Source of the DNA: Streptomyces sp. NBC_00461
GTDB lineage: Bacteria > Actinomycetota > Actinomycetes > Streptomycetales > Streptomycetaceae
Direction: 5' to 3'
Assembly: GCF_036013935.1 (NCBI RefSeq)
Contig: NZ_CP107902.1
Location: forward strand, 2,885,001-2,949,000
Length of the DNA: 64,000 nt
Shown here: in pieces, positions 1-14,789 of the stretch
Layout: each line of letters opens with the position of its first letter
Position numbering within the stretch: the first letter of the stretch is position 1
Translations under genes and position numbers: made by a program
Notes under the pieces: generated by a model
What the model was told of the DNA's origin: nothing
The model's database searches: none
What the model saw: only the letters and a program-made list of their open reading frames with translations

Positions 1-506
1 GACAGCCAACCGCCGGGCACGGGCGGCCAACCGCCGGGCGGAGTGGCGTCGAGCAGGGCTTCGGCCGCCCAGTTGATGTCCTTGAGGCGCGGGTCGATCT
101 GTCGCGCGCCGAACGCCTCCCGCACGACGTCCCAGCTGTCGACCGTGTCGATACGCAGCTTGTGGACGCGGGCGAGGATCGCCGGGTCGAGTTCGTTCTG
201 CTCGCGGTCGGTGAGGACGACCAGGACGGCGGGGCCGGGGCGGCGGCCCGTCAGGTGGTCGAGGACGAGTTCGTGGACGGCGAGCGGTGAGGGCGCCACC
301 GCGACGCCGGCCGTCCGGCCCTCGCCCCAGGCGGGTTCGGCGGGCCCGTCCCACTGAGGTGCGGACCGCAGCAGCACGACCCGGCGCCTGCCTCCGCCAT
401 CTCCGGTGAGGGAGGCGGCGAGGGAGGACTGCGAGGACAGGTACTGGGTGACGGTCGCGCTGTTCAGCCGGACGGCGCCCGGGACGGCGGCGACGGTGTC
501 CGTCAT
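1..506 (-). CDS. pglZ: PglZ, type 2 BREX phosphatase-family protein (N-terminal part, cut by window edge)
   Basis: Reading the minus strand from the ATG at 506 gives an open frame of 168 residues that runs off the window. It contains [29 protein letters not shown] and WAAEALLDA, which I recognise as the N-terminal region of Streptomyces PglZ. PglZ carries an alkaline-phosphatase-like domain (not visible here) and is one of the four core Pgl/BREX-2 proteins acting against phages such as phiC31. Its ATG overlaps the pglY stop in an ATGA arrangement (503-506), so the two genes are translationally coupled. The identification leans on this position directly after pglY. Activity cannot be judged because the catalytic domain lies outside. 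Confidence 0.85.
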
Positions 507-3500
507 TCGACGACCTTCCAGGTGATCTCGATGGTCGCGTCGGGGTGGCGGGCAGCCAGTTCGGACAGTTCCGCCTGGAGGTCGGCGGCGGCGCGTGCCG
601 CGGTCGTACGGCGGCCACCGGACGTCCGCGCGGAGCCGCTGCCGGAGGCGGCCGGTGTGGGTGTCTCCTGCGGGGCGTACGGGATGCGCGGGTCGCTCGT
701 CGGCGTGTTCAGGGACAGGTCGTCAGCCGTGGGCTGGGGTGCGACGGGAGGGGGCGGCGGGGTGGCTGCCTGAGTGCGCTTCACCAGGGCGACGACCTCG
801 CGCTGGGTACGGGCCAGGGCGTCGCGCAGGTCCGCGGTGCGCTGGTCGTCGCGGGCCACGTTGCGCAGCGAGTCGAGCAGTGCCGCGCCCTCGGGGCCGA
901 GTCCGGCCGCGAGTTCGAGGGTGCTCCAGGGCGCGGAGGCGACGGCCTCCGCGACTCCGCGGGCCTGCTTGATGGAGGTCCCGTACCGGTCGGCGCTGGT
1001 CTCGCCGAGGTCGAAGGAGGCGAGGGCCTCCACGGTCTTCTTCGCCCCGGCCGCGCCCTTGCCGGCCTCCGCCGTGAGCGCGTCCAGCAGTTGCAGGGAG
1101 CGGCGGGCGAGGGCGAGTCGTCCGGTGTCGGCGGTCTGGTCGAGACCGAGGAAGGAGGCGTGGGCCTCCAACTGGTGCACCAGGTCCGCCGCGTGGTCCC
1201 GGTGGGCGCGGGCGGCCTCGATGATCTGGCGGGCGAACTGGTTGACCATCCGGCCGCGCCGCAGGGCGGGAGCCTTCTGCCCGAAGATCGTCTCGAAGCG
1301 CTGCCGTGCCGTGTCCCAGTCGGACTCGGCGGGCAGTGGCTGGCTGCGCAGCGCGTCATGGTCCTTGATCGCGGACAGTTCGGGCGCGGGGTCGAGTACG
1401 GTGCCGCCGCGCACCCACACCCGGTCGTCCATCTCGGCGAACGCGGCGACGACGAGCCGGGCGAGGAAGTCGGGCAGGCCGCGCGGGTCGGGCTTGTCCG
1501 TCCAATCGGTCAGGGTGATCAGGGACAGGTCCCCGGTGACGCCCTGGGCGCTGGCGAGCTGGCGGAAGTGGTCGGCCCAGTAGCGGGACAGCTCGAAGTA
1601 CGCCTCCTTCTGCTGCCCGAGGCGCAGGGGCCCGGCGATCCGCTGCATGAGCTTGCGGTCGGTGGCCGGGACCTCCACCCGCCCGTCACGCGCTTCCGCG
1701 GCGGACCGGACGTGGGTGAACACCTTCTTGGTGTCGACTGACTTGACGGCGGTGCCGGTGCCGTCGGGGTCGAGGTCGGGGTGCGCCGGGTACTGGTGGG
1801 CGAGCAGCTTGCCCGCGACGTGCCGGATGCCGTCGTGCAGGCTCTGCCCGAAGGACAGGGTGAGGCCGTCGACATCGGGCAGCGGGACGAGGTGGTCGTC
1901 GAAGTCGGGCACGACGTCGGCGGCCTGCTTCTGGGCTAGACCGTAGGCCTGCTTGAAGGCGCCCTTGACCTGCTTGAGCAGAGCCTCACGCTGGGTTTCG
2001 AGGAGGCCCTTGGCGCGGCTGCGGTTGTCGGCGTTGAGGTGGCCGGCGTACTGGGTGTCGAAGCGGTGCTCGTCGGAGAGGGCCTTGTCGATGACGACGA
2101 GACGCCGGAAGTCGGCGAAGCGCTGCGCGGACAGATGGGCGGGCAGCCAGGCGACGATGCGGGACCGCTCGCCCTGCTGGCGCTCGCGCAGCCGCCGGAT
2201 GCGGTTGACGTCCTCGACCGGGCCCCACTCGCCCTCGTCGAAGGGGAGGTCTATGGCGATACGCCAGCGGCCGTCCTCCTGCGGCATCAGGTCGTGGTCG
2301 GGCAGCTCGTCCTCATCGGCGACGTTCCCGAACACGATCTCGGCGGTGCGGGAGGTACCGCGCCAGGTGAAGCCGAGCTGGTCGCTCAACTGCCCGTGCT
2401 CGACGCCCAGTTCCTCGGACAGCAGACGCCGGGCGAGAGCGACCCGGTTGCCGGGGTTGTCGTTGACTTGAGCGTTGGCGATGACGGAGTCCACGTCGAC
2501 GCCGGACAGCTCCAGCCGCACGCCGGGGTTGGCGTCGGTGCCGGTCTCCTTGATCTCGGGGAACCGGGCCGCCCACTCGGCGACCTTGTTCTTGATGATG
2601 CCGACCTCGGCGCCCGGGATCGGCGCGAGGACGGACCCGTGGTTGAGGGCGCCGAGCCGACGGATGGTCAGCTCCGCCAGGGAGGGCACGCTGGGCGCGA
2701 GCGCCGAGAGCAGCAGGGTGCACACGAGCCGGTTGTCGCCGACGAACATGCGGCAGCGGTTGGCGCGCTGCGGGTCGGCGATGGCCTCGGGCCGGTTGAC
2801 GTACTGCTCGACGTCGTCCTCGGTGATGTCGTACGAGCTGAGGAGGTAGGGCCGAAGCTTGGTCTTGTAGAGCTTGTCGGCGGCCTCAAAGACGACCTTC
2901 AGGCTGTCGGTGAACGGCTTGTCGCCGCCCGCTGCGATCACCGGGTAGAGGTCGCCGACCGGGATGAGCTGCCCGAGCCGGATCTCGTTGCGGTGGTCGG
3001 CGAGCAGCTGGCCCATCAGCTTCAGACCGGTACGGGAGCGCTGCAGCGCGGACGAGATGTGGACGAGGGTGTCCATGAACGCCGGCGAGAACGGGTACGT
3101 CAGCCGGAACGACTCCGCGTCCGCGCCGGTCGTGCCCTTCTCCGAGCCGAGGAGGGTGTCCCAGACCTGGGTGCCGACCCGCTTGGTCTGCTCGAAGGCC
3201 GCGTCGACGAGCCGTTCCGCCTCGGCGTCCTTCGGCTTGAGGATGCGCGCGTGAGCGATCTGCGGGAGGTTGCGGTCCTCCAGGGTGATCTTGTCGAACC
3301 GGCCGGAGGCCAGGTTCAGGGTGTCCTGGATGGAGGCTTCCGCCGCGCCGGACACCTCTTCACCGACGAGTTCACGCAGGTCGCGCTGGCGGGCGATGAA
3401 CGACACGACGGGGATGGCACGCCGGGCGTCGCCGCCCTCCACGAAATTCGTGATCTTGCTGGCCTCGCGGGCCACGAACTTCTGCTCGTGGATGAGAGTC

Positions 3501-4387
3501 GCGAGCCAGAGGATCAACTCGTCCAGGAACAGGATCAGGCCGTCGTAGCCGAGCGACTTGGCGTGCTCGGCGATGACGGACAGACCGGCGTCAAGGGAGA
3601 CGAAGCCGTGCTCGTTCTCGACGGCGTTCTTGGCGAAGCCGGGAAAAAGGTTGGTGCTGGCGTCGTTGACCAGCTTGGCGCGCAACTCGGCCGGGGTGGA
3701 GGGGTTGCGGAGGTTGAGCGGGGTGCCCCCCTCGTGGTTCTCCTCGGCGGCGAGCGCGGTGTCGAGGAGCTGCGGGGTCCAGGCGAAGCCCTCACCCCAC
3801 TCGTCCGTTTCCCCGTCGCCCGCGTCGCCGCCGCCCAGGCCGCGGATGACCGCCTCGTCACCGTAGGTGGCACGGTTGGCGCGGATGTCGGCGAAGAGGG
3901 AGTCGGTCCGGTACACCTGCGGGGTCGGCGCGTCCGGGTGCAGCTTCTTGACGTGCGTGACGTACCCGCCGAGCACCCGCTGTTCGAGGGCCTTCGCGCC
4001 GAGCATGTGGTACGGCACGAGCAGGAACCTCTTGCCGTCCGTGGTCAGCCACTCTTGCCTGGTCAGCACCGGGTCGAACTCGGTACGGGCACGGGCGGCC
4101 GGGTCGCCGCTGAGCAACGCGTACAGCACGGCCATGAAGTGGGACTTACCGGAACCGAACGAGCCGTGCAGGTAGGCCGCCTTGGAGCGGTGTCCGTCGA
4201 GCGAGGACTTGATAAGGGCCAGCGCCTCGTCGAAGTTCTCCAGCAGCCGCTCGGTGACGACGTAGTCCTTGAGCGCGTTCTGTGCGCCTTCGGGTGTCGT
4301 CGCCTCGGCGAGGGACAGCACGAAGTCCGAGGTGGAGATGTTCTCTTTGATGTCGATGACATCGCTGAGGAGGGGCGGCTGGGCCAT
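503..4387 (-). CDS. pglY: PglY, type 2 BREX P-loop ATPase (BrxC-like)
   Basis: A protein of 1294 residues, close to the usual PglY size. The ATG at 4387 is preferred over upstream in-frame starts because the protein then begins [17 protein letters not shown], the conserved N-terminus of the family. The upstream extension is low-complexity Arg/Pro. A Walker A motif (GSFGSGKS) sits at residues 75-82 and a hydrophobic Walker B stretch ([13 protein letters not shown]) near residue 290. The C-terminus is a Pro/Ala/Ser linker followed by a short conserved tail. PglY is an ATPase of the Pgl phage growth limitation system, related to BrxC. It overlaps pglZ by 4 bp and heads the pglYZ block. It is separated from pglX by about 10.9 kb of unrelated genes. 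Confidence 0.92.
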
Positions 4388-4763
4388 TGCGGGTCTCGCT
4401 CTCCCTGACGGTGGTCGGTGCTGCTGCTCGTACTCGGTGTCGTGCGGGGTCCGCCGCCGAGGCCCGAGGCCGGTCCGAGGGGTGGGGCGGGGCACAGGGG
4501 TGCGGATGACCGGTGCGGCGGGCCGGCTGTCCTGGCCGGTGGCGAGGACGGAGCCGGTCGTGCGGTGACCTGACGGGAACGACGCTCACGGCATCGGCCG
4601 GGTCAACGTAGACGGGTTCTCGGCGTCTGCACTTTCGTCCCCCTCGTACTGAACGTCACCCGTACGGCCTGCGCATAGCACCCTACATCGGTACTCCCGT
4701 CGACCCCGTGGCGTATACCCTCGCGCACCGTCCGTGCGGGCCGCTCACGCCCCGTCGTAGGCG
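4388..4763 (-). promoter_or_regulatory. Intergenic region upstream of pglY (probable pglYZ promoter region)
   Basis: About 376 bases lie between the end of the NLR-like gene and the pglY start, all minus-strand genes. No convincing coding frame is visible. A candidate -10-like TATAC lies near 4711-4715, but no clear -35 partner is seen. The gap suggests pglYZ has its own promoter. This is inference from spacing only. Confidence 0.3.
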
Positions 4764-6902
4764 CTACGGCCGCCATCGCCCTGTCCGGTAGGCGTCCAGC
4801 AGTTGTCGGCTCGCGACCGTGAAGGGGTGTTCGGGGCCCAGGCCGTGTTGCCGCCGCTCCACGACGTCGGTCATCAGCGCGATCCCCTCCTCCACGTGTC
4901 CGAGCGCGGCCCGGGTCCGGGAGAGGAGTTGCCGGGCGGCGAGCACGATCGGGTACTCGGGCCCGAAGCGCCGCACATACGTCTCGGCGACCCGCCGGAT
5001 CTCGCGGTCGGCCTCGTCGAAGCGGCCCAGGAGGTACAGCGCCCACGCGTGGTTGTGCCGGGCTCCCAGTGTCACGGTGTGGTCGGGGCCGAGGGACCGA
5101 TCGCATTCCGACGGCAGCGTGAGCAGTGTGCCGCCTTCCTCGGTGACCACTTCGGCGGCGGGCAGCATCTCCAGCAGGCTGGCGCGGGCCCGCAGGGTCA
5201 GCGGATGCGTGGGGCCCAGCGCCGAGCGCCGCCCGGCGACGGTGTCGCGGAGCAGCGCGACGGATTCCTCGCGTCTGCCGAGGTTCGCCAGCACGAGCTG
5301 AAGTCCGTAGCCGCTGTCCGCGGTGTCGGGGTCGTCGGCGCCGAACAGGCGCTCCTGGGCGCCCCGGACCGCGCGGAGCGCCGCTTCGGCTTCGGCGTAC
5401 CTGCCCAGCCGGAACAGTGCCCGCCCTGCCCTGGAGCGGGCGGCGAGGACCGTACGGTGGTCCGCGCCGAGGAGTCGCTGTGCGAGGTCCGCCGCGCTTC
5501 GGGCGGTCTCCCAGGCGGAGAGGTAGTCACCGGTCCGGTGCAGGGCGACCGACAGCCGCGTCGCGACGGCCAGGGCGTCGGCGGCGGACGGCCCACCGAT
5601 GTGCCGCAGCAGGGCCAGCGCGTGGGGTACCAGCAGGCGCAGTCGCGGATCGTGCGGCCCCGCGTCGGGTACGCCGGGCACGGCCGCGTCGAGCAGCCGG
5701 ACGGCTGTCGTGTCGAGGGCGGGCACCAGGTCCGCGGGGGTCGCCGCCGAGACGCTGTCGAGCAGGATGCCGTGACTCTGTACGCAGCGCGCGCCGGCGG
5801 CATCGACGAGTTCGGACAGCGACTGGTCGAGGAGTGCTCTGAGGGCTGTCTCGGTTCGGGCACGAGGCAGTACGGCGCCGATGCCGGCGTGGTTGAGCAG
5901 GGTCAGCGGCAGCGGCTCGGCAGCGAACCGGGCCAGCAGTCTGAGCAGGGCCGCCGCTTCGGGCAGCCCGCGCGCTCCGAACGCGTCGAGGGTCAGCTGC
6001 CAGGTCAGGCCGACCAGATGCCGGGGGTCCGCTTCGGACAGCGCGTCGGCTCCCCGGTCGATCAGCTGGACCCGTTCGTCTCCGTCGAGCTGGTCCCCGT
6101 AGGCGTCCATCGTCCAGGGGTCGAGCACCTGGTGGGAGAGGAAGCCGCCCGCCAGGGTGAGGGCGAGGGGCAGCCGCCCGAGCCGGTCCGCGACCCGTGC
6201 CGCCTGCTCCGTCGTACCGCTGTGCGGTGCGAGATCGCGCAGCACGAGCGCGGCGTCCTCTCGGGGCAGTACGCCGATGTACTGCAGCTCGGCGCCCGGC
6301 CACCACCGGGCCGCCGCTCGCCGTGTGGTCACCAGGACGGTGCCGCGCGGGCTGGTGCGCAGCCAGTTGCCGTCCCGCAGGATCTCCGGCTCGTCGGTGT
6401 TGTCCAGGACCAGTAACCAGGGTTCGGCGGAACGGTCGAGATACGTCCAGACGAGATCGGCGGCAGGTCTGAGGCCGTTGCGTGCGGCGAGCAGTTCGCC
6501 GTCGCCCGCTCCTCGGTCGGCGGCAACGGCGAGCATGCCGGCGCGCAGGCTCGCACGGTCGGAGGCGTTGACCCACAGGCCCACCCGGCCCTGTTCTGCG
6601 GTGACCTCCTGGAAGAGGGCGCAGGCGACCGCCGTCTTGCCCGAGCCGCCCATGCCGTACAGCACGTAGACCTGGCCGCCGCGCTCCGCCTCGACGCTCG
6701 CCCGCAGGTGTTCCATCACCTCGCTGCGGTCGCGCAGCGCGACGGGGGACCGGCCGACCGCCGGGCGTCGCACCGAGTCCGGTCCGCCGTGCTCCGGCCC
6801 GTCACCGCCGGAGTGGTGGTGGTGTTCGCTGATGTGCTGGTCGCCCCGCGACTGGTAGACACGTCCCTGGTCCTCGGCGTGGCCGTCCGTCCCACCCGTC
6901 AT
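4764..6902 (-). CDS. NB-ARC/TPR signal-transduction ATPase (bacterial NLR-like) with N-terminal amyloid-type motif
   Basis: A 712-residue STAND-type ATPase. Residues 12-27 carry QGRVYQSRGDQHISEH, followed by a His/Gly-rich linker. The nucleotide-binding domain has a P-loop (GMGGSGKT, about 82-90), a Walker B-like WLLVLDNTDE near 160, and a VTTRR sensor. Conserved helical-hairpin TPRs with GADHRTV/GPEHPF-type repeats (LG..HP.T) fill roughly residues 440-705, as in Streptomyces FxSxA/NB-ARC-TPR proteins. Such proteins oligomerise on sensing a ligand through their repeats. Its start overlaps the stop of the upstream small gene (ATGA at 6899-6902), so they form an operon. That small protein ends in nearly the same motif, suggesting an NLR-effector pair signalling by amyloid templating. 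The family is clear; the immune role is inferred. Confidence 0.85.
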   Translation of the reverse strand: MTGGTDGHAEDQGRVYQSRGDQHISEHHHHSGGDGPEHGGPDSVRRPAVGRSPVALRDRSEVMEHLRASVEAERGGQVYVLYGMGGSGKTAVACALFQEVTAEQGRVGLWVNASDRASLRAGMLAVAADRGAGDGELLAARNGLRPAADLVWTYLDRSAEPWLLVLDNTDEPEILRDGNWLRTSPRGTVLVTTRRAAARWWPGAELQYIGVLPREDAALVLRDLAPHSGTTEQAARVADRLGRLPLALTLAGGFLSHQVLDPWTMDAYGDQLDGDERVQLIDRGADALSEADPRHLVGLTWQLTLDAFGARGLPEAAALLRLLARFAAEPLPLTLLNHAGIGAVLPRARTETALRALLDQSLSELVDAAGARCVQSHGILLDSVSAATPADLVPALDTTAVRLLDAAVPGVPDAGPHDPRLRLLVPHALALLRHIGGPSAADALAVATRLSVALHRTGDYLSAWETARSAADLAQRLLGADHRTVLAARSRAGRALFRLGRYAEAEAALRAVRGAQERLFGADDPDTADSGYGLQLVLANLGRREESVALLRDTVAGRRSALGPTHPLTLRARASLLEMLPAAEVVTEEGGTLLTLPSECDRSLGPDHTVTLGARHNHAWALYLLGRFDEADREIRRVAETYVRRFGPEYPIVLAARQLLSRTRAALGHVEEGIALMTDVVERRQHGLGPEHPFTVASRQLLDAYRTGRWRP

Positions 6903-6949
6903 CGCTCTGCGATGTGCTGGTCACGTCCCGCTTGGTAGACCCGGGCCTG
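6822..6949 (-). repeat. Paired amyloid-type (RHIM/BASS-like) motif across the junction of two genes
   Basis: Two copies of a 16-residue motif are encoded about 80 bases apart in different reading frames. The C-terminus of the small upstream protein (6902-6949) reads QARVYQAGRDQHIAER. Residues 12-27 of the NLR-like protein (6822-6869) read QGRVYQSRGDQHISEH. Ten of 16 positions are identical, including RVYQ and DQHI. The DNA also repeats (gatgtgctggtc at 6831 and 6911). Known bacterial amyloid signalling sequences occur in this arrangement: the effector C-terminus and the N-terminus of a neighbouring NLR. That these form amyloid is inference. Confidence 0.65.
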
Positions 6950-7309
6950 ACCGGACGCGGTCGCGTGCTGGGTGAACTGCCGGGCGGCCGAGCCACCGGG
7001 ATCGAGTCGGTCCAGCAGTGCGCGCAGTTCCTCGACGGCGTCGGGCCGGGCGACGAGCAGCCGCCGCACCAACCCCTGCCACTGAAGGCGGAGTTCGTCC
7101 AGGGTCTCCTGGTCGTCCGCCGCCACGGCGGCCAGCACCTGCTCGCGACCGGCCTCCAACTCGGCGGCGACGGTCTCGGCGCGCTCGGGTTGCGTCCGAC
7201 GCCAGAGCTGTGTGATCCCGTCACGCACACGGTGCCAGGCATCGGTCGCCATCAACGCGACCAAGGTGGTCCCCGCGCTCTGTGCGAGCAAGGTCACTTC
7301 TGGGTCCAC
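6899..7309 (-). CDS. Small helical protein with C-terminal amyloid-type motif (candidate effector partner of the NLR)
   Basis: A 136-residue protein. The GTG at 7309 is chosen because GGAGGGG lies 6 bases upstream and the product then starts (M)DPEVTLLAQSAGTTLVALM, a recurrent start in Streptomyces. The body is predicted all-helical with a mildly hydrophobic N-terminal helix, a WHRVRDGITQLWRR segment and Leu-rich helices. It contains no enzyme motif I recognise. It ends in RVYQAGRDQHIAER, matching the N-terminal motif of the downstream NB-ARC/TPR protein. Small helical domains of this kind with a C-terminal amyloid motif (Bell/HeLo-like) are proposed membrane-disrupting effectors. Assigning this one to that class is inference from architecture. 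It is co-transcribed with the NLR gene through an ATGA overlap. Confidence 0.7.
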   Translation of the reverse strand: MDPEVTLLAQSAGTTLVALMATDAWHRVRDGITQLWRRTQPERAETVAAELEAGREQVLAAVAADDQETLDELRLQWQGLVRRLLVARPDAVEELRALLDRLDPGGSAARQFTQHATASGQARVYQAGRDQHIAER

Positions 7310-7537
7310 AGCCGCCCCTCCGTTCACCTGATTATCCGACAGCACAGATGGGAAGTGTCACCTGTCAGGCGTTTGCGTGATTTTCTTTCCGATCATTATC
7401 ATTCCAGCCCTGAGCGGCATGAGACAAGGAGGAATCAATCCTCGCCATTACCCCTTCGAGCTGGTTCTAACACATGATCAGGCGGGTAAGTTGCACGCTA
7501 CAGTGAGACATCCCGATCGATCGAGGGGGCGACGGAA
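7310..7537. promoter_or_regulatory. Divergent intergenic region, locally AT-richer
   Basis: This 228-base gap separates the leftward effector/NLR operon from the rightward small gene at 7538. It is visibly richer in A and T around 7370-7480 than its surroundings. An open frame across it (from 7377) has no ribosome binding site or conserved start and I do not call it. Promoters for both directions are expected here. Confidence 0.35.
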
Positions 7538-7807
7538 ATGGCCAGGCCATGGGAAGCAGATCCGGACACAGGTTTCAAACAGCGCCTGGGAAAGACTCCC
7601 CAGGAGCTCGGTAACACAACCGGAACTCCTGACTGCCCTGACATCTGGGAACTCACGAACGGCGACATCGCTGTCATCGGCCGGGATCTGACGCAGTCAC
7701 TCGGAAGGAACCTTCCCGACGGGGTCTCGATCGGGTCGGACGAACGCCTCGTAGTCATCCCCCGGAACATGCTCATCGCGGCGAAGCCGGACATCCCCAG
7801 TGTTTGA
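7538..7807 (+). CDS. Small conserved Streptomyces protein, partner of DUF6879-type gene
   Basis: An 89-residue protein starting at an ATG with GGGGGCGACGGA upstream. It has the pattern CPDIWELTNGDIAVIGRDLT ... VVIPRNMLIAAKPDI: a short beta-rich domain common in Streptomyces immediately before DUF6879 genes. It overlaps the next gene by 8 bases (7800-7807), so translation is coupled. The same domain occurs at the N-terminus of the protein encoded at 11878-12630, where it is fused to a DUF6879 domain. The two parts therefore probably act together. Function unknown. These pairs often sit beside XRE/DUF397 regulators, which suggests a regulatory or toxin-antitoxin-like role (inference). Confidence 0.75.
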   Translation: MARPWEADPDTGFKQRLGKTPQELGNTTGTPDCPDIWELTNGDIAVIGRDLTQSLGRNLPDGVSIGSDERLVVIPRNMLIAAKPDIPSV

Positions 7808-8438
7808 TTCCTTCCCCGGCCGCGCCTCCGAACGCCTGGATCGCCCCACGTACCACGCGGACTTGGGCCGGGTCTACAGCAGTGGGATCGGCTTCCTCAA
7901 CAAGCTTGAGCGCGGCCAGCACTTCAAGGAGCGCGGCTTCCCGAGCTGGGAGGCCTTCGCCGACGGCGACTGGGAGGGGGCGCTGTCCCTGGCCGAGGAG
8001 AGGCGCGAGGAGTACGCCGAGGAACTCCGCCAGGCGTCGCGACTGGGGGTCAGGCACCGCCGCCTTCGCGTCGTGGAATTCCCGGTCACGCCGTATGTGC
8101 AATGGGAGTTGTTCGTCCTGCGCGTACGCGTGGACGTGGGCGACGACATCAAGGTTCTCGACGCTCGCGATATTTCGCACATCGAGCGGACTCGCCCAGT
8201 TCCAGAGGTAGTGATTCTCGGCGATGTAGCCATGTATGAGGTCGTTTACGACGAGGACGGAAATGCGGCCGGAGCCAACCGTTACACCGACCACTCGCTG
8301 ATCCGGGAAACGAACGCCGGATTCGATGCACTCTATGAGCGCGGTGAGGGATTCCACGATTTCTTCGACCGGGAGATCGTCACCCTGGCCCCGCCCCGGG
8401 TGTCCGGTGCTCCGACGGGTGTTCGCGGTTCGCGGTGA
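7800..8438 (+). CDS. DUF6879 family protein
   Basis: A 212-residue protein with a GTG start inside the end of the preceding gene. Recognisable family features are LERGQHFKERGFPSWEAF near the N-terminus, RLRVVEFPVTPYVQWEL in the centre and DDIKVLDARDISHIERT. The usual DFWLFDS motif is replaced by PEVVILGDVAMYEVVYDEDGN. It lacks membrane segments. This family is widespread and multi-copy in Streptomyces with no established biochemical role. The C-terminal 25 residues (PPRVSGAPTGVRGSR) look like read-through and are probably not conserved. It forms a pair with the upstream small gene, inside the region separating pglX from pglY. Confidence 0.75.
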   Translation: MFDSFPGRASERLDRPTYHADLGRVYSSGIGFLNKLERGQHFKERGFPSWEAFADGDWEGALSLAEERREEYAEELRQASRLGVRHRRLRVVEFPVTPYVQWELFVLRVRVDVGDDIKVLDARDISHIERTRPVPEVVILGDVAMYEVVYDEDGNAAGANRYTDHSLIRETNAGFDALYERGEGFHDFFDREIVTLAPPRVSGAPTGVRGSR

Positions 8439-8554
8439 TCAGCGGGGCGGGATGACGAGCGAGCCCTCATGCCAACAGATCACCCCGCCCGGCGATGAGG
8501 AGAACGCCCGTCGCATCGGCCACCCCGTCGGGGGTGAGGAGTGCGCTGGCGGTG
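8439..8554. other. Convergent intergenic gap
   Basis: The gap lies between the DUF6879 gene (plus) and the EcsC-like gene (minus). GGTGATC at about 8434 and GATCACC at about 8480 could pair across a long loop, but no compact terminator hairpin is evident. Confidence 0.3.
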
Positions 8555-9430
8555 TCAAGACTGGGGTTCCTCCAGCTTGATGGCAGGGGCGTCTGCGCCG
8601 TGCTGTTCGGCGTGTGGGGTGGCGAAAGACTCGTGGTCTTCCACGACTTCGCCGTCCACGACTTCCCCATCCATCACTCGGTGCGACGGGTCCGCCAGCG
8701 GCAGGCTGGAGAGGTGCTTCTTGAGCCTCTTGGCCATCGGAAGGTAGGTCGCAAGAGTGAGCCCGCCGGAGACAACGGCCCCAACGAGAGGGATGGCCTT
8801 CGAGACGCTCTTCGCGAAGGAATCCTTTGTCATCTTGACGCCGAGGTAGGCTGCGACTTTTTTGACGATGGGATAGATGAGGCCCTTGGTGAGTGCCTTC
8901 TGAGGCAGCTTCTTGACGGCCTGCTCCGACATCATCCCCGCGACCTTCCCCACAGCGGCGTTCGCCGACTGGGTGCCGAACATCACGCCGAAGAACAGCG
9001 TGAGCACCCCCATGGTCGCGTCGTCGACGTCATCGCCGTCGTCGGAGAACAGGTCGGGCCAGCTGTAGAGGTAGGCGAGTTTCTGCGCGATACGCACCAT
9101 GTGGCCGAAGTACTGGGCCAGGTCGGCGGGCACAGTGGCGGGAAGGGCGAGGATGCCGGGGATCCCGGCAGCGGCGGAGAGAGCGCTGACCTTGCCGGTT
9201 TCGAAGCGGATGGAGTCATTGGCCACCTTGTCGAGAACCTCAACAGGGATGCCCGCAGCAGCAGGGGTCTCTTCTATCGCTCTCCGGATGTCGTCCTCGG
9301 AGCAGTGGCGAGCCAGCGCACTTCGGAGGTACGCCTCCCTGTTGATACGCACACCCGGAAGCTTTGCTGCCGCCAGCAGCACCGCGGAGAAGCGCGACTC
9401 GGGGTTCTCGATGCCTTTGCCCTGTTTCAT
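8555..9430 (-). CDS. EcsC family protein
   Basis: A 291-residue protein starting at ATG 9430. The central region (about residues 75-225) is rich in small and hydrophobic helices (GIPGILALPATVPADLAQYFGHMVRIAQKLAYLY in part; KAIPLVGAVVSGGLTLATYLPMAKRLKK near 225-245). This matches EcsC-family proteins, which contain membrane-associated helices and an NxxR-like aqueous segment. The C-terminus is acidic and repetitive (MDGEVVDGEVVEDHE), probably disordered. The function of EcsC proteins is poorly defined; some are linked to ABC transporters, which are not present here. It lies alone between DUF6879 and a gene remnant in the Pgl insert. A role in defence is possible but only by location. Confidence 0.75.
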   Translation of the reverse strand: MKQGKGIENPESRFSAVLLAAAKLPGVRINREAYLRSALARHCSEDDIRRAIEETPAAAGIPVEVLDKVANDSIRFETGKVSALSAAAGIPGILALPATVPADLAQYFGHMVRIAQKLAYLYSWPDLFSDDGDDVDDATMGVLTLFFGVMFGTQSANAAVGKVAGMMSEQAVKKLPQKALTKGLIYPIVKKVAAYLGVKMTKDSFAKSVSKAIPLVGAVVSGGLTLATYLPMAKRLKKHLSSLPLADPSHRVMDGEVVDGEVVEDHESFATPHAEQHGADAPAIKLEEPQS

Positions 9431-9695
9431 AGCAGAAACTTACAGTAACTTTGCGCCCCAAGGGGCGGGCTTTGTATGCCCAGTTGGGGCCTCCTGATGT
9501 GGGTGTCGGTGGCGTGAGGGCTGGGTCCATCACGATGTAGATCGTCGCCCAGGAAGGCGACCGCCGTCGCGAACCGCGCGTCTCTGGGCGGACGTTGATC
9601 GCGGTGGCAGCCAGCGCCGGCGCGACACCCGGTGAGCGAGGCGCCAGGGCTGCTGAAGGTCCTGCGGAGGCGGACATGCGCAGGGCCCTCGGCAC
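9431..9695. other. Non-coding gap left of a gene remnant
   Basis: About 265 bases with no supported gene. Minus-strand frames here have no ribosome binding site and no recognisable domain. The right end borders an 84-base copy of the start of the ATPase gene found at 14790, so this gap may include a recombination junction. Confidence 0.3.
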
Positions 9696-9779
9696 ATGCC
9701 ACAGCGTCCGGCATCCGAACGCGAGTTCACCATGCGCTTCACCTCAACTCCACGCGGGGCCCGCCTCGCCCGCCGACTC
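9696..9779 (+). pseudogene. Truncated 5' copy of an anti-sigma-type ATPase gene
   Basis: These 84 bases encode MPQRPASEREFTMRFTSTPR and a little more. They align without gaps to 14790-14873, the start of the intact HATPase gene (MPQHRAPEREFTMRFTSTPR). After GCCCGCCGACTC the similarity stops abruptly and the frame continues into unrelated sequence that ends at the methyltransferase stop. This is a remnant, not a gene. With the intact copy it makes a direct repeat bracketing the 9.8-14.8 kb interval. Confidence 0.7.
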
Positions 9780-9831
9780 CTCGGACCAGCCGTCGCGGAT
9801 CGAAGCACAAAGACACGCTCGACCGTGTCCG

Positions 9832-10488
9832 TCACGGAGCGACCGCGCGGACAAGGAGCGTCCCGATGTGCCCAGGCTGAGGCGCGTCGAGGACCCGCGC
9901 GTCGGCCGTGGCGAACCCGGCCCGCGTGAGCAGGCGCTCCCAGACGGCCGGGCGGTAGCTGTAGCGGTAGGTGAACATCGCCTTTCCGGCGAAACCTCCC
10001 TTGTACATGCCCTGCGGCCCGTACGCACCGGGGATGGCCGGCGGCTGCGAGAACACGAACACGCCACCGGGCCTGAGCCGTTGGCGGACAAGGGGGAAGA
10101 GACGGCCCGGGTCGGTGAACCATGCGGCACCGAAGATCGAGTAGACCGCGTCGTACACCTTCTCGTGCCCGCTCAGGTACTCCAGCACCTCGCAGCACAC
10201 GAACTCCGCACCGGTACCGGCCCACTTCGTGGTGGTCTTCTCGACCATGACGGGAGACAGGTCGACACCCCGAGCGGCGATGCCGCGCTCAGCAAGGTGG
10301 GCGAGGGCGCGGCCGGTGCCGCAGCCGATCTCCAGCACGGAGCGCGAGTCGCCCAGCAGCTCCGGGCCGGGTCCGTGACCGGCGTACTGGGTCCAGCAGA
10401 ACCCCGGCTCCGCGTCTTCCTTGAAAGCGGAAGCGGCGAAGGTGTCCCACAGCTCCGTCTCGGCAGCGATGTCGTGTTGTGCGGGCAA
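9832..10488 (-). CDS. Class I SAM-dependent methyltransferase
   Basis: A protein of about 218 residues. The TTG at 10488 is preferred because AGAGGAA lies five bases upstream; an in-frame TTG at 10506 has no such site. Motif I is SVLEIGCGTGRALAHLAERG (residues about 50-69). It is followed by the acidic strand end RGVDLS, motif II (VYDAVYSIFGAAWF) and a post-motif RLRPGGVFVFSQPP. These define a soluble Rossmann-fold methyltransferase of the UbiE/Methyltransf_11 type. The substrate cannot be told. It is transcribed with the upstream glycine-rich-domain-like gene (gap of about 70 bases) and probably two very small genes, a cassette that recurs in Streptomyces (from memory). Confidence 0.85.
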   Translation of the reverse strand: MPAQHDIAAETELWDTFAASAFKEDAEPGFCWTQYAGHGPGPELLGDSRSVLEIGCGTGRALAHLAERGIAARGVDLSPVMVEKTTTKWAGTGAEFVCCEVLEYLSGHEKVYDAVYSIFGAAWFTDPGRLFPLVRQRLRPGGVFVFSQPPAIPGAYGPQGMYKGGFAGKAMFTYRYSYRPAVWERLLTRAGFATADARVLDAPQPGHIGTLLVRAVAP

Positions 10489-10559
10489 GTCGATTCCTCT
10501 TCGCAAAGGCTGGCCCCTGTCCTCCTGGGGACCGAGGACAGGGGCCAGCGTAGGACTGT

Positions 10560-11060
10560 TCAGTGGCTGTCAGGGACCTTGTTGTCGCACGGCGAGCAGT
10601 CCGTGCCGTCGATCGCCCACAGCTCCTTGTCGATGTCGAAGCCGATGGAGTTCAGGAAGCCCGCCGTACGCAGGCACAGACCGTCGCGACGGCGCTGGAT
10701 GAACGGGGCGTGGTGCTTGTAGCGACCCTCGTTGTACGCGTCGCAGAGGGCCCACCACACGGGAGTGTCAAGGATGAGCTGGTGAACACCGATGTCGACG
10801 AGCTTGCCGACCCCGAGGTGGACCTCCGGGTGCTCCATGCAGCCGATGGTGTACATGACCGCGTTGCCGAGGATCCGCTCGGCCATGTCGCGGACCATCG
10901 TGTGGTCGCGCAGCAGCAGAGCCACCTCGCGGTCCCACAGGGTCATGTCGCCGTCCAGCACGTTGATCGTCAGGTGCTTGATGCGGGGCTGAACGGCGTT
11001 GAGGAGTTCCTTCGGGTCCCGTGTGCGGGTGCTCACGGGCCGGTCGAGTGTGGCGGTCAT
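10560..11060 (-). CDS. Glycine-rich-domain-like conserved protein with Cys-containing tail
   Basis: A 166-residue protein with a clear ATG and AGGAGT upstream. The core VGKLVDIGVHQLILDTPVWWALCDAY followed by KHHAPF resembles the 'glycine-rich domain-containing' family, which has a W/GxHxFxLDT motif and conserved histidines. The C-terminus CSPCDNKVPDSH holds paired cysteines, possibly metal-binding or a modification site. No signal peptide or membrane helix is seen. It lies directly upstream of a methyltransferase on the same strand. The two could form a small biosynthetic or regulatory cassette; the product might even be a methyltransferase substrate (speculation). Function unknown. Confidence 0.65.
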   Translation of the reverse strand: MTATLDRPVSTRTRDPKELLNAVQPRIKHLTINVLDGDMTLWDREVALLLRDHTMVRDMAERILGNAVMYTIGCMEHPEVHLGVGKLVDIGVHQLILDTPVWWALCDAYNEGRYKHHAPFIQRRRDGLCLRTAGFLNSIGFDIDKELWAIDGTDCSPCDNKVPDSH

Positions 11061-11263
11061 GGACTACTCCTTCGAAGACAGCTCGTGTCGTACCGGTTCG
11101 AGCCCGCCCCGCCTGTCAGCCTGTCCCGGCTGAAAGCGCGGCGCGGGCGCCTTTGAGGATCCCGTTCCAGCGAGGACTACTGGGTGACCTGGCTGGAGCG
11201 GGCGGCTGGGTGGAGCCCTGGCGGTTGCCCATTCAGCAGACATGGTCGAGGTGTCCGGAGTGG
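11061..11263. other. Intergenic gap, no gene seen
   Basis: About 200 bases between two minus-strand genes. I see no supported coding frame; a promoter for the glycine-rich-domain-like gene and methyltransferase probably lies here. Confidence 0.3.
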
Positions 11264-11500
11264 TCACGAGAAGACCCCGCCACTGCTTGCCGAGTTCAGA
11301 GCACGGGTTCGCTCCCGCATGGCCTGCTGCCGCTCCTCGTCCGTTGCACGGCGGACGCGAGCAGGGTCGACGCCCCACTCGCGTCCGCCCGTCACCGGCC
11401 GAAGCTGCACGACCCGTCCGAGGTGACCCATGACGTAGCCGAGCCTGTCGCGCTCGGTGTCGACGACCAGCGCGCCCTCCGGCTGCTGTTCCTCAGGCAT
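11264..11500 (-). CDS. Very small conserved Streptomyces protein (78 aa)
   Basis: ATG at 11500 with GGGGGTGA upstream, the same bases that end the preceding gene. The protein reads MPEEQQPEGALVVDTERDRL then GYVMGHLGRVVQLRPVTGGREWGVDPARVRRAT. This is a compact SH3-like beta domain seen in many Streptomyces, usually next to another tiny gene as here. The C-terminus is helical and basic. Function is unknown. It probably belongs to one operon with the 64-residue protein upstream and perhaps the downstream cassette. Confidence 0.6.
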   Translation of the reverse strand: MPEEQQPEGALVVDTERDRLGYVMGHLGRVVQLRPVTGGREWGVDPARVRRATDEERQQAMRERTRALNSASSGGVFS

Positions 11501-11506
11501 CACGCG

Positions 11507-11701
11507 TCACCCCCGTCGGATCGCTTCGGCCAGGCGGGCGGCCACGTCGGAGCGCACCCGCCCCAGCTCAATGAGCCGCAGCGTGGGGGAGGCAGGGTCG
11601 ACCCTCAGCGAGGGCAGGACGAGCCCGACATCGGACAGCGCCGCTCTCAACGTCTCCGCCGCCGCGTGCGGGTCGACGTTGTTCCGTTCTTTCGAGGCCA
11701 T
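11507..11701 (-). CDS. Very small conserved Streptomyces protein (64 aa)
   Basis: The ATG at 11701 gives MASKERNNVDPHAAAETLRA followed by LSDVGLVLPSLRVDPASPTLRLIELGRVRSDVAARLAEAIRR. I recognise this as the usual partner of the next small protein, from which it is separated by six bases. No catalytic motif is visible; the protein is predicted helical with one beta strand. It is divergent from the DUF6879 fusion gene at 11878. Function unknown. Confidence 0.6.
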   Translation of the reverse strand: MASKERNNVDPHAAAETLRAALSDVGLVLPSLRVDPASPTLRLIELGRVRSDVAARLAEAIRRG

Positions 11702-11877
11702 GAGCAGGACGCTAGAAGCGGGACGTTGACTGGCGGTATGCTGTTTTCTCGAATTTGCTCGCCTCGCGCCCAAGATTGCTGGTGTTTTCCCCTGAGCCCT
11801 GCCTGACCCCGTAGTGCCAGGCCCGGACCCCCGACCATGCTGATGGGATCAACACCCCGCGAAAGGGAGGAACGTCC
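11702..11877. promoter_or_regulatory. Divergent promoter region
   Basis: These 176 bases separate the leftward tiny genes from the rightward DUF6879 fusion gene. GGGAGGA at 11869-11875 is the ribosome binding site of the latter. No clear operator is visible. Confidence 0.35.
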
Positions 11878-12630
11878 ATGGCGCGTCGGTTGCGCTTCAC
11901 CGGCACGGACAGCAAGGTCGACGGTTGCCCCGCCCTGCACACGGACGAAGGCACCGGCGAGATCATCGTTCAGGGCACGCCCGTCACCGCCCCCGAAGAC
12001 CTCGCACAGCTCCAGCACTTCGGAGTCAGCGAGGCAGCGGTGGCCGTGCCGCGCGAACTGCTCGTGAACTGGGGACCGAAGGAGATGGAGCGAGTGCCGG
12101 AACTCGTGGACCGGGCCACCTTCCGCCGCCTGTTCGAGACCTTCGAGCACACCGCCTGGCGGCTGGAGACGCGGCGCGGTTACGCGTCGGACCGACAGGA
12201 CCCCGACTTTCAGGCGTTCCTGGCCACCGGCTCGTCACCCTGCGACCCCGACGAACCCTGGTTCGTCAACATCAAGGCCCAGACGGGCGCCGGTAAGACG
12301 GTCGGCCGTGTCCGCATCGCCGACAACCCGCCCACCACGGAACAGCTGTTCCTGCTCGACTACGCCCGGCACAACGCCACCTTCGGCGAAGACATCCGGT
12401 ACCTGTGGCGCGAGGACGCCGCGCGGGCCGGCCTACCCGCCGAGGACTTCTGGATCTTCGATTCACGGCTGGTCGCCCTGCTGCACTTCGACGACGAGGA
12501 CAACCTGCTCGACATCGAGCTGATCACCGAACCGGCTGAGGTCGTGCGGTACGCCATCGTGCGCGACGCAGCGACGCACCACGCAATCCCGCGCGACCAG
12601 TTCGCCACGCAGGTGGCCACGACCGAATAG
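11878..12630 (+). CDS. DUF6879 family protein fused to the small partner domain
   Basis: A 250-residue protein with ATG after GGGAGGAACGTCC. Residues 1-70 match the free small protein at 7538-7807 (GCPALH..., EIIVQG, VAVPRELLVNWGPKEM). Residues about 75-250 form the DUF6879 domain (FRRLFETFEHTAWRLETRRG, GKTVGRVRIADNPPT, DFWIFDSRLVALLHFDDEDN, EPAEVVRYAIVRD). This fusion of what is a two-gene pair elsewhere in the same window argues that the two domains work together. It is followed after 10 bases by an XRE regulator on the same strand, so it is probably the first gene of a two-gene operon. Its biochemical role is unknown. Confidence 0.8.
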   Translation: MARRLRFTGTDSKVDGCPALHTDEGTGEIIVQGTPVTAPEDLAQLQHFGVSEAAVAVPRELLVNWGPKEMERVPELVDRATFRRLFETFEHTAWRLETRRGYASDRQDPDFQAFLATGSSPCDPDEPWFVNIKAQTGAGKTVGRVRIADNPPTTEQLFLLDYARHNATFGEDIRYLWREDAARAGLPAEDFWIFDSRLVALLHFDDEDNLLDIELITEPAEVVRYAIVRDAATHHAIPRDQFATQVATTE

Positions 12631-12640
12631 CGCGTGACAG

Positions 12641-13492
12641 GTGAGCACTGACTACCAGCAGGCACGGGTGGCGTTGGGGGCGCGGCTGCGCGAGCTCCGT
12701 TTCCTGTGCCCTGGTGGTCGGCTCACCGGTCAGCAGCTCGCGCAGCGACTCGGCTGGCCGGGCTCCAAGGTCAGCAAGCTGGAGAACGGCAAGCAGACGG
12801 CCACCCCCGAGGATCTGAGGGCGTGGGCCGACGCGACCGGGCAGCCGGGGGTATACCCCGAACTCGCTGCCCGGCTGGCCGGGTTCGAGTCGCACATCAG
12901 GTCATGGCGTCGAGCGCTGGCGAACGGCTTCAAGCCCCTTCACGAGGGGCTGAGCGCCGAGATCGACCGCACCTCGGACATGTGGGTCTGGGAGGAGTCG
13001 GTGATCGCCGGACTGCTGCAGACCCCGGAGTACGCCCGGCACGTCATCCAGCGGTATGCGGAGCTGCTGGACGGACCCGGCGACATCGAGGCAGCCGTCC
13101 GCTCTCGGGTACAGCGCCAGGAATGGCTGTACCGGTCCGGCCGCAGGCTGCACGTGTTGATGTGGGAGGCCGCGTTGCGGTCGCTGATCTGCCCGCCCGC
13201 GGTGCTGGCGAGCCAACTCGACCGTCTCAGCGGCATGATCGGTATGGACACGGTCGAGCTGGGTGTCATCCCCTTCACGGCGTCCGTCAAGATCGTGCCT
13301 GCCAACGGCTTCTGGGTGCTCGATGACCGGCTGGTCGTCGCCGAGGACTGGCACGCCGAACTGTGGCTGGACGACGCCGACAACATCGCCTTGTACAAGA
13401 AGGTCTGGAAGACCCTCAGCGAGTCGGCGGTGCATGAGGCCGACGCCCACAACCTCATCAACTCGGCCCGCCGAGCCTTGAACTCGCGTTGA
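12641..13492 (+). CDS. XRE-family regulator with DUF5753 domain
   Basis: A 283-residue protein starting at GTG, 10 bases after the DUF6879 fusion gene. The helix-turn-helix lies at residues about 10-65 (LTGQQLAQRLGWPGSKVSKL ENG). A DUF5753 domain follows: YEAxxI-like WVWEESVIAGLLQTPEYARH, then VRSRVQRQEWL, IGMDTVELGVIPF and a C-terminal LWLDDADNIALYKKVWKTL. These WhiJ-like regulators generally accompany a DUF397 protein, and some pairs behave as atypical toxin-antitoxin or developmental regulators in Streptomyces. Here the neighbour is a DUF6879 fusion rather than DUF397. A strong terminator hairpin follows at 13521-13562. Confidence 0.9.
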   Translation: MSTDYQQARVALGARLRELRFLCPGGRLTGQQLAQRLGWPGSKVSKLENGKQTATPEDLRAWADATGQPGVYPELAARLAGFESHIRSWRRALANGFKPLHEGLSAEIDRTSDMWVWEESVIAGLLQTPEYARHVIQRYAELLDGPGDIEAAVRSRVQRQEWLYRSGRRLHVLMWEAALRSLICPPAVLASQLDRLSGMIGMDTVELGVIPFTASVKIVPANGFWVLDDRLVVAEDWHAELWLDDADNIALYKKVWKTLSESAVHEADAHNLINSARRALNSR

Positions 13493-13520
13493 GGGGGCTC
13501 AAGCTCCCGTTGGGATGTGC

Positions 13521-13562
13521 GCAGGGCCCCTGGGTAAGCACACGCCTGCCCAGGGGCCCTGC
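13521..13562. terminator. Bidirectional terminator hairpin
   Basis: GCAGGGCCCCTGGG (13521-13534) pairs perfectly with CCCAGGGGCCCTGC (13549-13562) around a 14-base loop. It sits between the convergent XRE gene (plus) and DUF397 gene (minus). Confidence 0.85.
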
Positions 13563-13567
13563 CGCTG

Positions 13568-13771
13568 TCAGAGGGCCGCGAACTCGACGAACGCGGTCCA
13601 CGCCGTGGGTTCTACGGCGAGTGCGGCGCGGGTTGTGTCCTTTGAGTCGCGGACGTGGACCCTGGCCGGGGCAGCGGCAACTTCGACGCACTGACCGCCC
13701 TCAGCGCCGCTGTAGCTGCTCTTGACCCAGACAAGCGCAGGCGTGGGACCGCGCTTTGCTTCAGCGTTCAT
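13568..13771 (-). CDS. DUF397 family protein
   Basis: A 67-residue protein with the family signature WVKSSYSGAEGGQCVEVA followed by VHVRDSK and a WTAFVEF tail. The start ATG overlaps the stop of the upstream XRE gene (13768-13771), so the two are coupled. DUF397 proteins are partners of XRE/DUF5753 regulators in Streptomyces. Known examples bind and antagonise the regulator, and the pair with a SpoIIAB-like ATPase resembles the whiJ-type locus. No catalytic residues are evident. Confidence 0.92.
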   Translation of the reverse strand: MNAEAKRGPTPALVWVKSSYSGAEGGQCVEVAAAPARVHVRDSKDTTRAALAVEPTAWTAFVEFAAL

Positions 13772-14598
13772 CTCTCTCCCAACAGCTTCTCGATGAAGGC
13801 CAGGGACTCACTCGGAGTGAGAGCCTGCGCTCGGATAATCCCATAGCGCGCGGACAGCGCATGGACCGCATCTCGCTCGGTGACCAGCGTGCTCCGACCT
13901 TGAGCCTCCATGTAACCGACCTGTTGCCCCTGCCTCGGCATCAGCAAGGTGAACGCGCCATCCACACCAGCATTGTCCTCGCGGTCGAGCGGCATCACCT
14001 GAAGCTCGACGTTCCGCTTCTGGCCGAGCAAAAGCAGCTGCTCAAGCTGTCCGCGCCACACCTGCTCGCCGCCGAGCGGCCGCCCTACAACCGGCTCCTC
14101 CATGACGAAGCTCAGCAGCGGGGCAGGCCACCTGTCGAAGATCTCCTGTCGTGTGAGTCGCGCTGCAACGCGCTGCTCGATGGTCGCCTCGTCCAGCAGT
14201 GGACGCCGCATCCCCAGCAGAGCCCGCGTGTACTCCTCTGTCTGCAACAGGCCGTTGACCACGTGGGTGTCATACACGTAAAGCTCGACTGCCTCGGCCT
14301 CCAACTTGGCCGCATCCCGGAAGAACGCCGGATACTGAGCCCGAGCCACCTCCTCCTTGCTCGCGCTCAACACCCCACCCGCCCCCAGCACTTCATCCGC
14401 CTGGTCGATGAACTTCGGCGGCGGGATACGTCTCGCCTGCTCGAACGACGCGATCGTCGAGGCCGAGTACCCGGTCAGCGACCCGAGCTTCGCGCGGTCC
14501 ATCCCCGCCCGCTCCCGGAACAGCTTCAACTGCCGCCCGAACACATAGAGAATGCCCGTCCCGACCTCGTACTCCGGCTGCTGAACCTCGACGTCCAC
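13768..14598 (-). CDS. XRE-family regulator with DUF5753 domain, partner of DUF397
   Basis: A 276-residue protein. The GTG at 14598 is chosen because GAGAGGAG lies about 7 bases upstream; longer versions add an unconserved N-terminus. The HTH occupies residues about 15-65 (FRERAGMDRAKLGSLTGYSASTIASFE). DUF5753 features are VELYVYDTHVVNGLLQTEEYTR, RLTRQEIFDR, FVMEEPVVGRPLGG, VELQVMPL and an acidic C-terminal helix (SLAFIEKLLGER). It is coupled to DUF397 and divergent from the HATPase gene at 14790. This is the standard XRE-DUF397-HATPase cluster of Streptomyces, thought to act in regulation of development or stress. Confidence 0.92.
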   Translation of the reverse strand: MDVEVQQPEYEVGTGILYVFGRQLKLFRERAGMDRAKLGSLTGYSASTIASFEQARRIPPPKFIDQADEVLGAGGVLSASKEEVARAQYPAFFRDAAKLEAEAVELYVYDTHVVNGLLQTEEYTRALLGMRRPLLDEATIEQRVAARLTRQEIFDRWPAPLLSFVMEEPVVGRPLGGEQVWRGQLEQLLLLGQKRNVELQVMPLDREDNAGVDGAFTLLMPRQGQQVGYMEAQGRSTLVTERDAVHALSARYGIIRAQALTPSESLAFIEKLLGER

Positions 14599-14789
14599 TC
14601 CGCAGCTCCTCTCGTACAACCGCCCAGTCAGCGAACTCGGAGCCTGGGAACCGGTCACGCCCAACACCACGTACAAGCGCACGGCCCGCGTGTACAGCCC
14701 GTACCCGTCAGAGCATCGCTCCTGTTCAACGCTACGCAGTGTCCGCAACCGTTGACCTCATGAAGTCAGCAACTCCCCCGAACGGGCAT

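Follow-up and report, generated by a model that had tools for sequence, protein, structure and literature searches.

The 64,000-nucleotide stretch of Streptomyces sp. NBC_00461 analyzed here (contig NZ_CP107902.1, positions 2,885,001 to 2,949,000; hereafter the window) carries two adjacent genes that encode a common terminal motif and lie between pglX and pglY of a BREX-2 (Pgl) anti-phage locus. The first gene, on the minus strand at 6899-7309 with a GTG start at 7309, encodes a small helical protein of 136 amino acids, a putative Bell-like effector, which bears the motif at its C-terminus (QARVYQAGRDQHIAER, residues 121-136, 6902-6949, minus strand). The second, at 4764-6902 on the same strand, encodes a 712-residue NLR composed of the motif (QGRVYQSRGDQHISEH, residues 12-27, 6822-6869, minus strand), an NB-ARC domain (residues 63-263) and TPR repeats, with the motif sitting in an N-terminal extension ahead of the NB-ARC domain. 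The genes overlap by 4 bases in an ATGA junction, where the ATG of the NLR gene (6900-6902) runs into the TGA stop of the small gene (6899-6901). In the Pfam scan the NLR matched NB-ARC (6e-7, 29.4 bits against a cut-off of 23.5) and TPR_10 (1.8e-22), and it combines an NB-ARC domain containing a P-loop with C-terminal TPR repeats, the combination by which STAND/NLR proteins are recognized. Among PDB sequences it matched 16 chains, all of them kinesin light chains apart from two kinesin-light-chain-like TPR entries.

The two motifs are identical at 10 of 16 residues. When both termini were shuffled, 10 identities were reached in none of 20,000 trials and the observed BLOSUM62 score (52) in 1 of 20,000. 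A back-translated motif pattern had exactly two matches in the 10.37-Mb single-contig genome, both at the pair, and its reversed control had none; chance similarity of the two motifs was ruled out by the shuffles together with this genome-wide search. The original prediction, made from the window's letters and open reading frames, had named the matching 16-residue segments at the end of the small protein and the start of the NLR, the ATGA overlap, the NB-ARC/TPR character of the larger protein and the position of the pair between pglX (15304-18930) and pglY (503-4495). These claims agree with the shuffles and the genome pattern, with the coordinates of the junction (6899-6902), with Pfam and with the family models, respectively. 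Between the small gene and pglX, however, lie other genes over a distance of about 8 kb.

Relatives of the small protein (E <= 0.001) were found in 113 of 199 genomes of a genus sample and in 123 of 197 genomes of an order sample, the window genome being counted in both. We compared 136 loci: L001-L057, the best matches of the genus and order searches with the window's own included, and L058-L136, 79 named loci from the best 80 of 219 relatives in a named genome collection. Some genomes contribute to both sets, which are not independent, and the near relatives in the named collection are nearly all Streptomyces records. A pattern search of the 136 loci detected the C-terminal motif in 134, the N-terminal motif in the next gene in 119 and a start within a 4-base overlap in 121. 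Seventeen rows missed one pattern; a variant is visible by eye in L027, L028, L030, L050, L052, L055 and L120, and the remaining rows either had no partner placed or reflect a script miss (L096, whose NLR motif was found by the six-frame scan). That scan, run on the 79 named loci (1.49 Mb), found the motif exactly twice in 67 loci, a single time in 11 and four times in L101; the two copies in the 67 loci lie 74-155 bp apart, mostly 80, and the reversed motif had no match. Since the 79 loci were recruited by the C-terminal motif pattern, only the N-terminal copy counts as independent evidence. Within the C-terminal copy, codon position 3 is variable (majority base 0.78) and position 2 is not (0.99), so selection acts on the C-terminal peptide. 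The N-terminal copy (0.86, 0.94 and 0.84 at codon positions 1 to 3) on its own shows no protein-level selection, position 3 being about as conserved as position 1. The original prediction was to fall if homologous gene pairs failed to conserve the motif; they keep it on both sides of the junction.

Two further arrangements were seen among these loci. L101 contains two motif pairs on opposite strands, approximately 2.4 kb apart and both of the RVYQAGRDQHI class. In L027, L050 and L053, inspection by eye showed that the next protein after the small one carries the motif or a similar segment and is apparently membrane-spanning, not NLR-like, and the shared tag may couple partners other than NLRs there.

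The small protein itself has no Pfam match above cut-off and no NCBIfam or PADLOC match. Its homologues (50 rows) begin at the same first residue in the alignment and conserve W25, W36, W77, R82 and R83. AlphaFold predicts a five-helix bundle (helices 3-20, 25-39, 41-63, 67-87 and 91-102), with 93 of the 136 residues, covering all five main helices, at a predicted local distance difference test score (pLDDT) of at least 90, and a disordered motif-bearing tail (residues 115-136, pLDDT under 50). The most hydrophobic 19-residue segment starts at residue 5 with a Kyte-Doolittle value of 1.14, and none of the 50 rows reaches the usual transmembrane threshold of 1.6. A sequence search of the PDB with the small-protein profile returned weak matches only (best E 0.058), which we took as unrelated, and a fold search of the PDB listed no HeLo, MLKL or Bell chain, a result that is compatible with such a relation. 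No phage record encodes a relative at E 0.01; 13 plasmid records do encode relatives, all under 60% identity.

The helical domain is also found within larger proteins. From a sample of 15 loci where a helical-domain match fell in a long open frame, tblastn placed the domain near the N-terminus of frames of 821-1639 amino acids in 14 (E 4e-13 to 0.002, the weakest being marginal). A strict P-loop lies 173-221 residues in, in 13 of these 14 fusion frames, and NB-ARC exceeded the curated cut-off in all eight fusion proteins scanned. Fused to NB-ARC NLRs, the helical domain therefore occupies the effector position of one-piece NLRs; in the window it forms a separate protein with a tag in common with the NLR. 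The helical character foreseen for the small protein is supported by the helices that AlphaFold predicts, and the fusion to NB-ARC NLRs is as expected of an effector domain. At one locus (L184:416-5335) a one-piece protein runs from the helical domain through NB-ARC to CHAT at its C-terminus.

Distant relatives of the helical domain carry other C-terminal motifs. Sixty distant loci were fetched; in 59 the small protein is encoded separately, and at 19 of the 59 a set rule placed a P-loop gene immediately downstream of it. Over the 19 pairs, the similarity of the tail to its cognate NLR averaged 30.1 compared with 21.6 (sd 1.5) for permuted pairs, and none of 20,000 permutations was as high (kinship of loci uncorrected). 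Clear motif pairs are GGDAFLAGRDMTVTRG with GGSAFMAGRDIHVRYG in L209, SVVNAVQGGNQYNHYM with GRINAVQGGDQYNYIY in L233 and ADRRSKVVQAGENITI with ARWFSGILQAGGDITV in L201. The motif class of sensor and effector tends to change jointly, and such joint change on one helical domain argues, from sequence alone, that the tag links sensor to effector.

The BREX-2 core around the pair is complete. PglY (BREX-2 ATPase, 503-4495, minus strand; NF047891, 2275 bits, cut-off 1700), PglX (BREX-2 methyltransferase, 15304-18930, minus strand; NF033451, 1779 bits, cut-off 400) and PglW (BREX-2 kinase, 18927-23651, minus strand; NF033442, 1719 bits, cut-off 990) are encoded in the window, and PglZ starts there (1-377, minus strand) and continues outside it (L137:12600-15377; NF033446, 983 bits, cut-off 200). 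BrxD likewise exceeds its NCBIfam cut-off and BrxHI was matched by PADLOC (1062 bits); PglZ, BrxD and BrxHI continue beyond the window in L137.

We next considered how often this setting recurs among close loci, by which we mean the 32 named loci L058-L089, in which the matched part of the small protein shows 78% identity or more. PglY covered to at least 75% lies beside the cassette in 16 of the 32 (17 of 33 with the window), a count made by coverage irrespective of frame integrity, one of the PglY genes being broken into two frames (L072) and one cut by the contig end (L062). In these 16 loci pglY is downstream of the NLR gene on the same strand and in the same order, 120-2857 bp from the NLR end. 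PglX is upstream within 10 kb in 11 of the 16, and also in L059 when a longer fetch (L138) is used; in L070 PglX is upstream and the contig ends 249 bp past the NLR. Five further close loci (L067, L071, L073, L068 and L084) retain Pgl fragments, among them about 110 bases from the 3' end of pglX in L068, seen as a nucleotide match, and a PglX fragment farther upstream in L084 (L150). Short PglW pieces lie near the pglX 3' end in L071 and L073, as if most of pglW and pglX had been deleted and the NLR cassette retained. On a quick-method tree of 44 NLRs, built with no shuffled control and with gain and loss not separable, loci linked to Pgl are spread through the close clade, the state changing 10 to 12 times.

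In the genus sample, PglY exceeded its cut-off in 28 of 199 genomes, and six of these, the window included, have the pair. PglY lies approximately 2.5-3 kb from the small gene on the same contig in five of the six and across a contig break in the sixth (G197). With the window genome set aside, PglY exceeds its cut-off in 6 of the 8 genomes that have a close homologue versus 27 of 198 overall (hypergeometric P = 9e-5), where the close-homologue line of E < 1e-60 was drawn after the list had been seen and one of the six, G011, has PglY on another contig. The original prediction had put the pair inside a BREX/Pgl locus: the locus is a real and complete BREX-2 system and the association recurs, but the pair is not a constant BREX-2 component, being found at 6 of the 28 PglY loci of the genus sample.

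Nucleotide similarity among the close loci, with or without Pgl, spans approximately window positions 4762-8450, a four-gene cassette that includes two genes besides the pair. One, at 7538-7807 on the plus strand and divergent from the pair, encodes an 89-residue protein without an assigned family (no Pfam, PADLOC or NCBIfam match); the other, at 7800-8438 on the plus strand, encodes a DUF6879 protein (PF21806, 1.5e-33). Both genes occur within 2.5 kb in 31 of the 32 close loci and in 12 of 47 distant loci, the exception among the close loci being L088, a sequence starting inside the small gene. Their distance from the small gene is nearly constant in close loci, and in L118 and, farther off, L127 they are linked in another arrangement. 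The two genes are probably a functional part of the cassette, their products being candidate regulators or partners of the pair.

The interval into which the cassette falls was compared in 20 other Pgl loci (L154-L173), where its length varies between practically zero (L170) and 11.2 kb (L155), with varied genes inside; in L158 and L161 there is no pglX within approximately 13 kb. Given this variation in size and content, we regard pglX-pglY as a variable slot. Its occupants include a frame of 1580-1599 amino acids in L158 and L161 and a P-loop protein of 627-647 amino acids in L163, L165 and L166. Just before pglY in L161 (3986-5212) and in L162 are C-terminal pieces of this NLR, 97% and 82-84% identical, which come without the N-terminal motif or the small protein and look like decayed copies. 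In the window, the same slot (7310-15303) contains another DUF6879 gene with an XRE/DUF5753 regulator gene after it (11878-13492).

Pairs of this general kind are known. NLR/Bell pairs with common amyloid motifs (BASS 1-10) have been published for actinobacteria, including Streptomyces, and for other multicellular bacteria (Dyrka 2020, as related in PMC8086366, PMC7889193, PMC9815663 and PMC12261475), which makes the system less novel than the original prediction suggested. The window pair is like the BASS pairs in its adjacent, overlapping genes, in the position of the motif at the N-terminus of the NLR and the C-terminus of a small helical protein, and in its actinobacterial host; it is unlike them in that the small protein has no clear transmembrane helix and in its place next to BREX-2 genes, where two more conserved genes accompany it. 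Its motif may resemble BASS2. For BASS3, the accounts in PMC8086366 and PMC9815663 describe a peptide that aggregates with cross-beta signatures and GFP-BASS3 foci that are lost on a Gln-to-Pro change. The templating logic and the two-gene architecture are also those described for fungal NLR/HET-S and HELLP signalosomes and the RHIM necrosome (PMC7889193, PMC7885112), although the family scans made here gave no sequence relation to them.

We hold it likely that the pair is a bacterial NLR amyloid-signaling pair of the BASS type, working like fungal NLR/HET-S and possibly providing an abortive-infection layer behind Pgl. By analogy with the described systems, the motif may form amyloid and the small protein may kill or arrest the cell; functional coupling of the pair to Pgl is likewise conjectured. 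The RHIM core tetrad has the consensus V/I-Q-V/I/L/C-G; it is absent from the window motifs, which have Y-Q-A-G and Y-Q-S-R, and identity with RHIM/BASS3 was rejected. In the mechanism that we envisage, the TPR region would sense a phage- or stress-derived signal and the NLR would oligomerize via its NB-ARC domain, so that the clustered N-terminal motifs would nucleate a beta-arch amyloid. This amyloid would template the small protein in its disordered tail; the helical domain, once concentrated or released, would bring about growth stop or death, perhaps at the membrane. Placed beside pglY, the cassette may add abortive infection as a layer behind Pgl.

Other explanations of the shared motif were weighed against this one. 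The motif could serve for homotypic docking without amyloid, as a beta-pairing or adaptor tag that builds a finite complex and no self-propagating polymer. Joint change of motif class requires specific pairing alone and AlphaFold leaves the tail unstructured, both of which suit docking; yet the architecture and motif placement match those of the BASS pairs, whose BASS3 peptide aggregates in the reports cited above, and we consider docking unlikely. The pair of similar stretches, separated by about 80 bp, could instead be a regulatory repeat acting at the DNA or RNA level, as the 80-bp spacing in most loci and the N-terminal copy (position 3 versus 1, 0.84 versus 0.86) would allow. However, in the C-terminal copy position 3 varies and position 2 does not (0.78 versus 0.99), leaving the residues fixed, both copies are in frame although in two different frames across the ATGA junction, and the protein motif classes tend to change jointly. 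The codon-position pattern and the joint class change, with the N-terminal copy alone indecisive, largely rule the repeat out and leave it a negligible chance. It is also very improbable that the NLR is the FxSxx_TPR protein of an FxSxx-COOH peptide system: NF040586 is its best NCBIfam match, but at 245.2 bits it stays below the cut-off of 300, for which membership was rejected, and the neighbors scanned are BREX-2, cassette and other slot genes, a radical SAM partner not having been specifically searched for.

A more evenly balanced alternative concerns the setting. The pair may be a genuine NLR/effector pair without functional tie to Pgl, a passenger at a hot spot for which pglX-pglY is a tolerant slot in a defense island, and we find this about as credible as its opposite. 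The high variability of the interval in the 20 other Pgl loci, with unrelated genes inside, and the NLR remnants upstream of pglY in L161 and L162 favor it. Against it stand the strong clade-level association scattered over the tree (17 of 33 beside PglY and five with Pgl fragments) and the constant strand and order of the NLR gene and pglY in 16 loci, 120-2857 bp apart. Several results count against an amyloid-signaling pair tied to Pgl. The pair occurs without a PglW, PglX or PglY match at 50% identity or more in 10 of the 32 close loci and in all 47 of the more distant loci. Of the 10, L064 and L077 have little DNA available on one flank, and L065 carries a full-length PglX-like gene that is 41% identical. 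Conversely, 20 of the 28 PglY loci of the genus sample, fetched upstream of pglY with two more left out, are without the small protein. As for the pairing itself, the cognate NLR ranked first among the 19 distant NLRs in four cases, second in five and fifth or worse in ten, and the latter ten pairs show no clear common motif. In the RVYQAGRDQHI family, pair-specific covariation was looked for without success: a motif resembles its cognate no more than it resembles non-cognate motifs (46.66 versus 46.15; 2,041 of 20,000 permutations as high, with 95 distinct motif pairs and kinship of loci uncorrected). The tag is nearly fixed there, and pair-level specificity is absent.

A role as a backup to Pgl is worth considering, since in many close relatives the pair adjoins BREX-2 genes. 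Since most examined BREX-2 loci lack the pair and many pairs lack Pgl, the passenger explanation is at least as likely as that role. A stronger version of the backup role, which we regard as conceivable but doubtful, is a BREX-2/Pgl subtype with its own prion-like suicide switch: the NLR would sense failure or inhibition of Pgl, for instance by a phage anti-BREX protein, and amyloid templating would fire the helical-bundle effector. Such a switch would be an amyloid counterpart of PARIS modules, with the 89-residue and DUF6879 proteins as regulators. Bacterial NLR-related anti-phage proteins (Kibby et al. 2023) are reportedly mostly single proteins with fused effector domains; the window pair is like them in having a bacterial STAND/NLR sensor and unlike them in that sensor and effector are separate and have a tag in common.

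BREX loci are described as embedding auxiliary effectors, such as PARIS-like OLD/TOPRIM modules, which have been proposed as a backup layer (PMC12839542). Like the loci treated there, the window has a complete BREX-2 core with an extra defense module inside the core locus; unlike the window pair, the auxiliary effectors cataloged in one section of that survey are nucleases. In the survey's main text (January 2026), NLR, NB-ARC and amyloid have 0 occurrences, and the mentions of STAND noted there refer to core components of BREX, BrxB and PglW among them. Within the literature searched, which left supplements and subscription papers outside, the motif strings had no match and no paper had the combination of BREX, NLR and amyloid as its subject by title. 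Provisionally, the new element is thus the setting, i.e. the pair in a four-gene cassette beside pglY of BREX-2.

The role and outcome of bacterial NLR amyloid signaling were called unexplored in a passage of a 2021 review in Prion (PMC7889193). The recurrence of such pairs beside a known anti-phage system gives a concrete setting for that role, one that offers a tractable genus, a defined phage-defense partner and predicted single-residue knock-outs. In related species the pair recurs beside the Pgl genes, and it may be a built-in backup cell-death switch.

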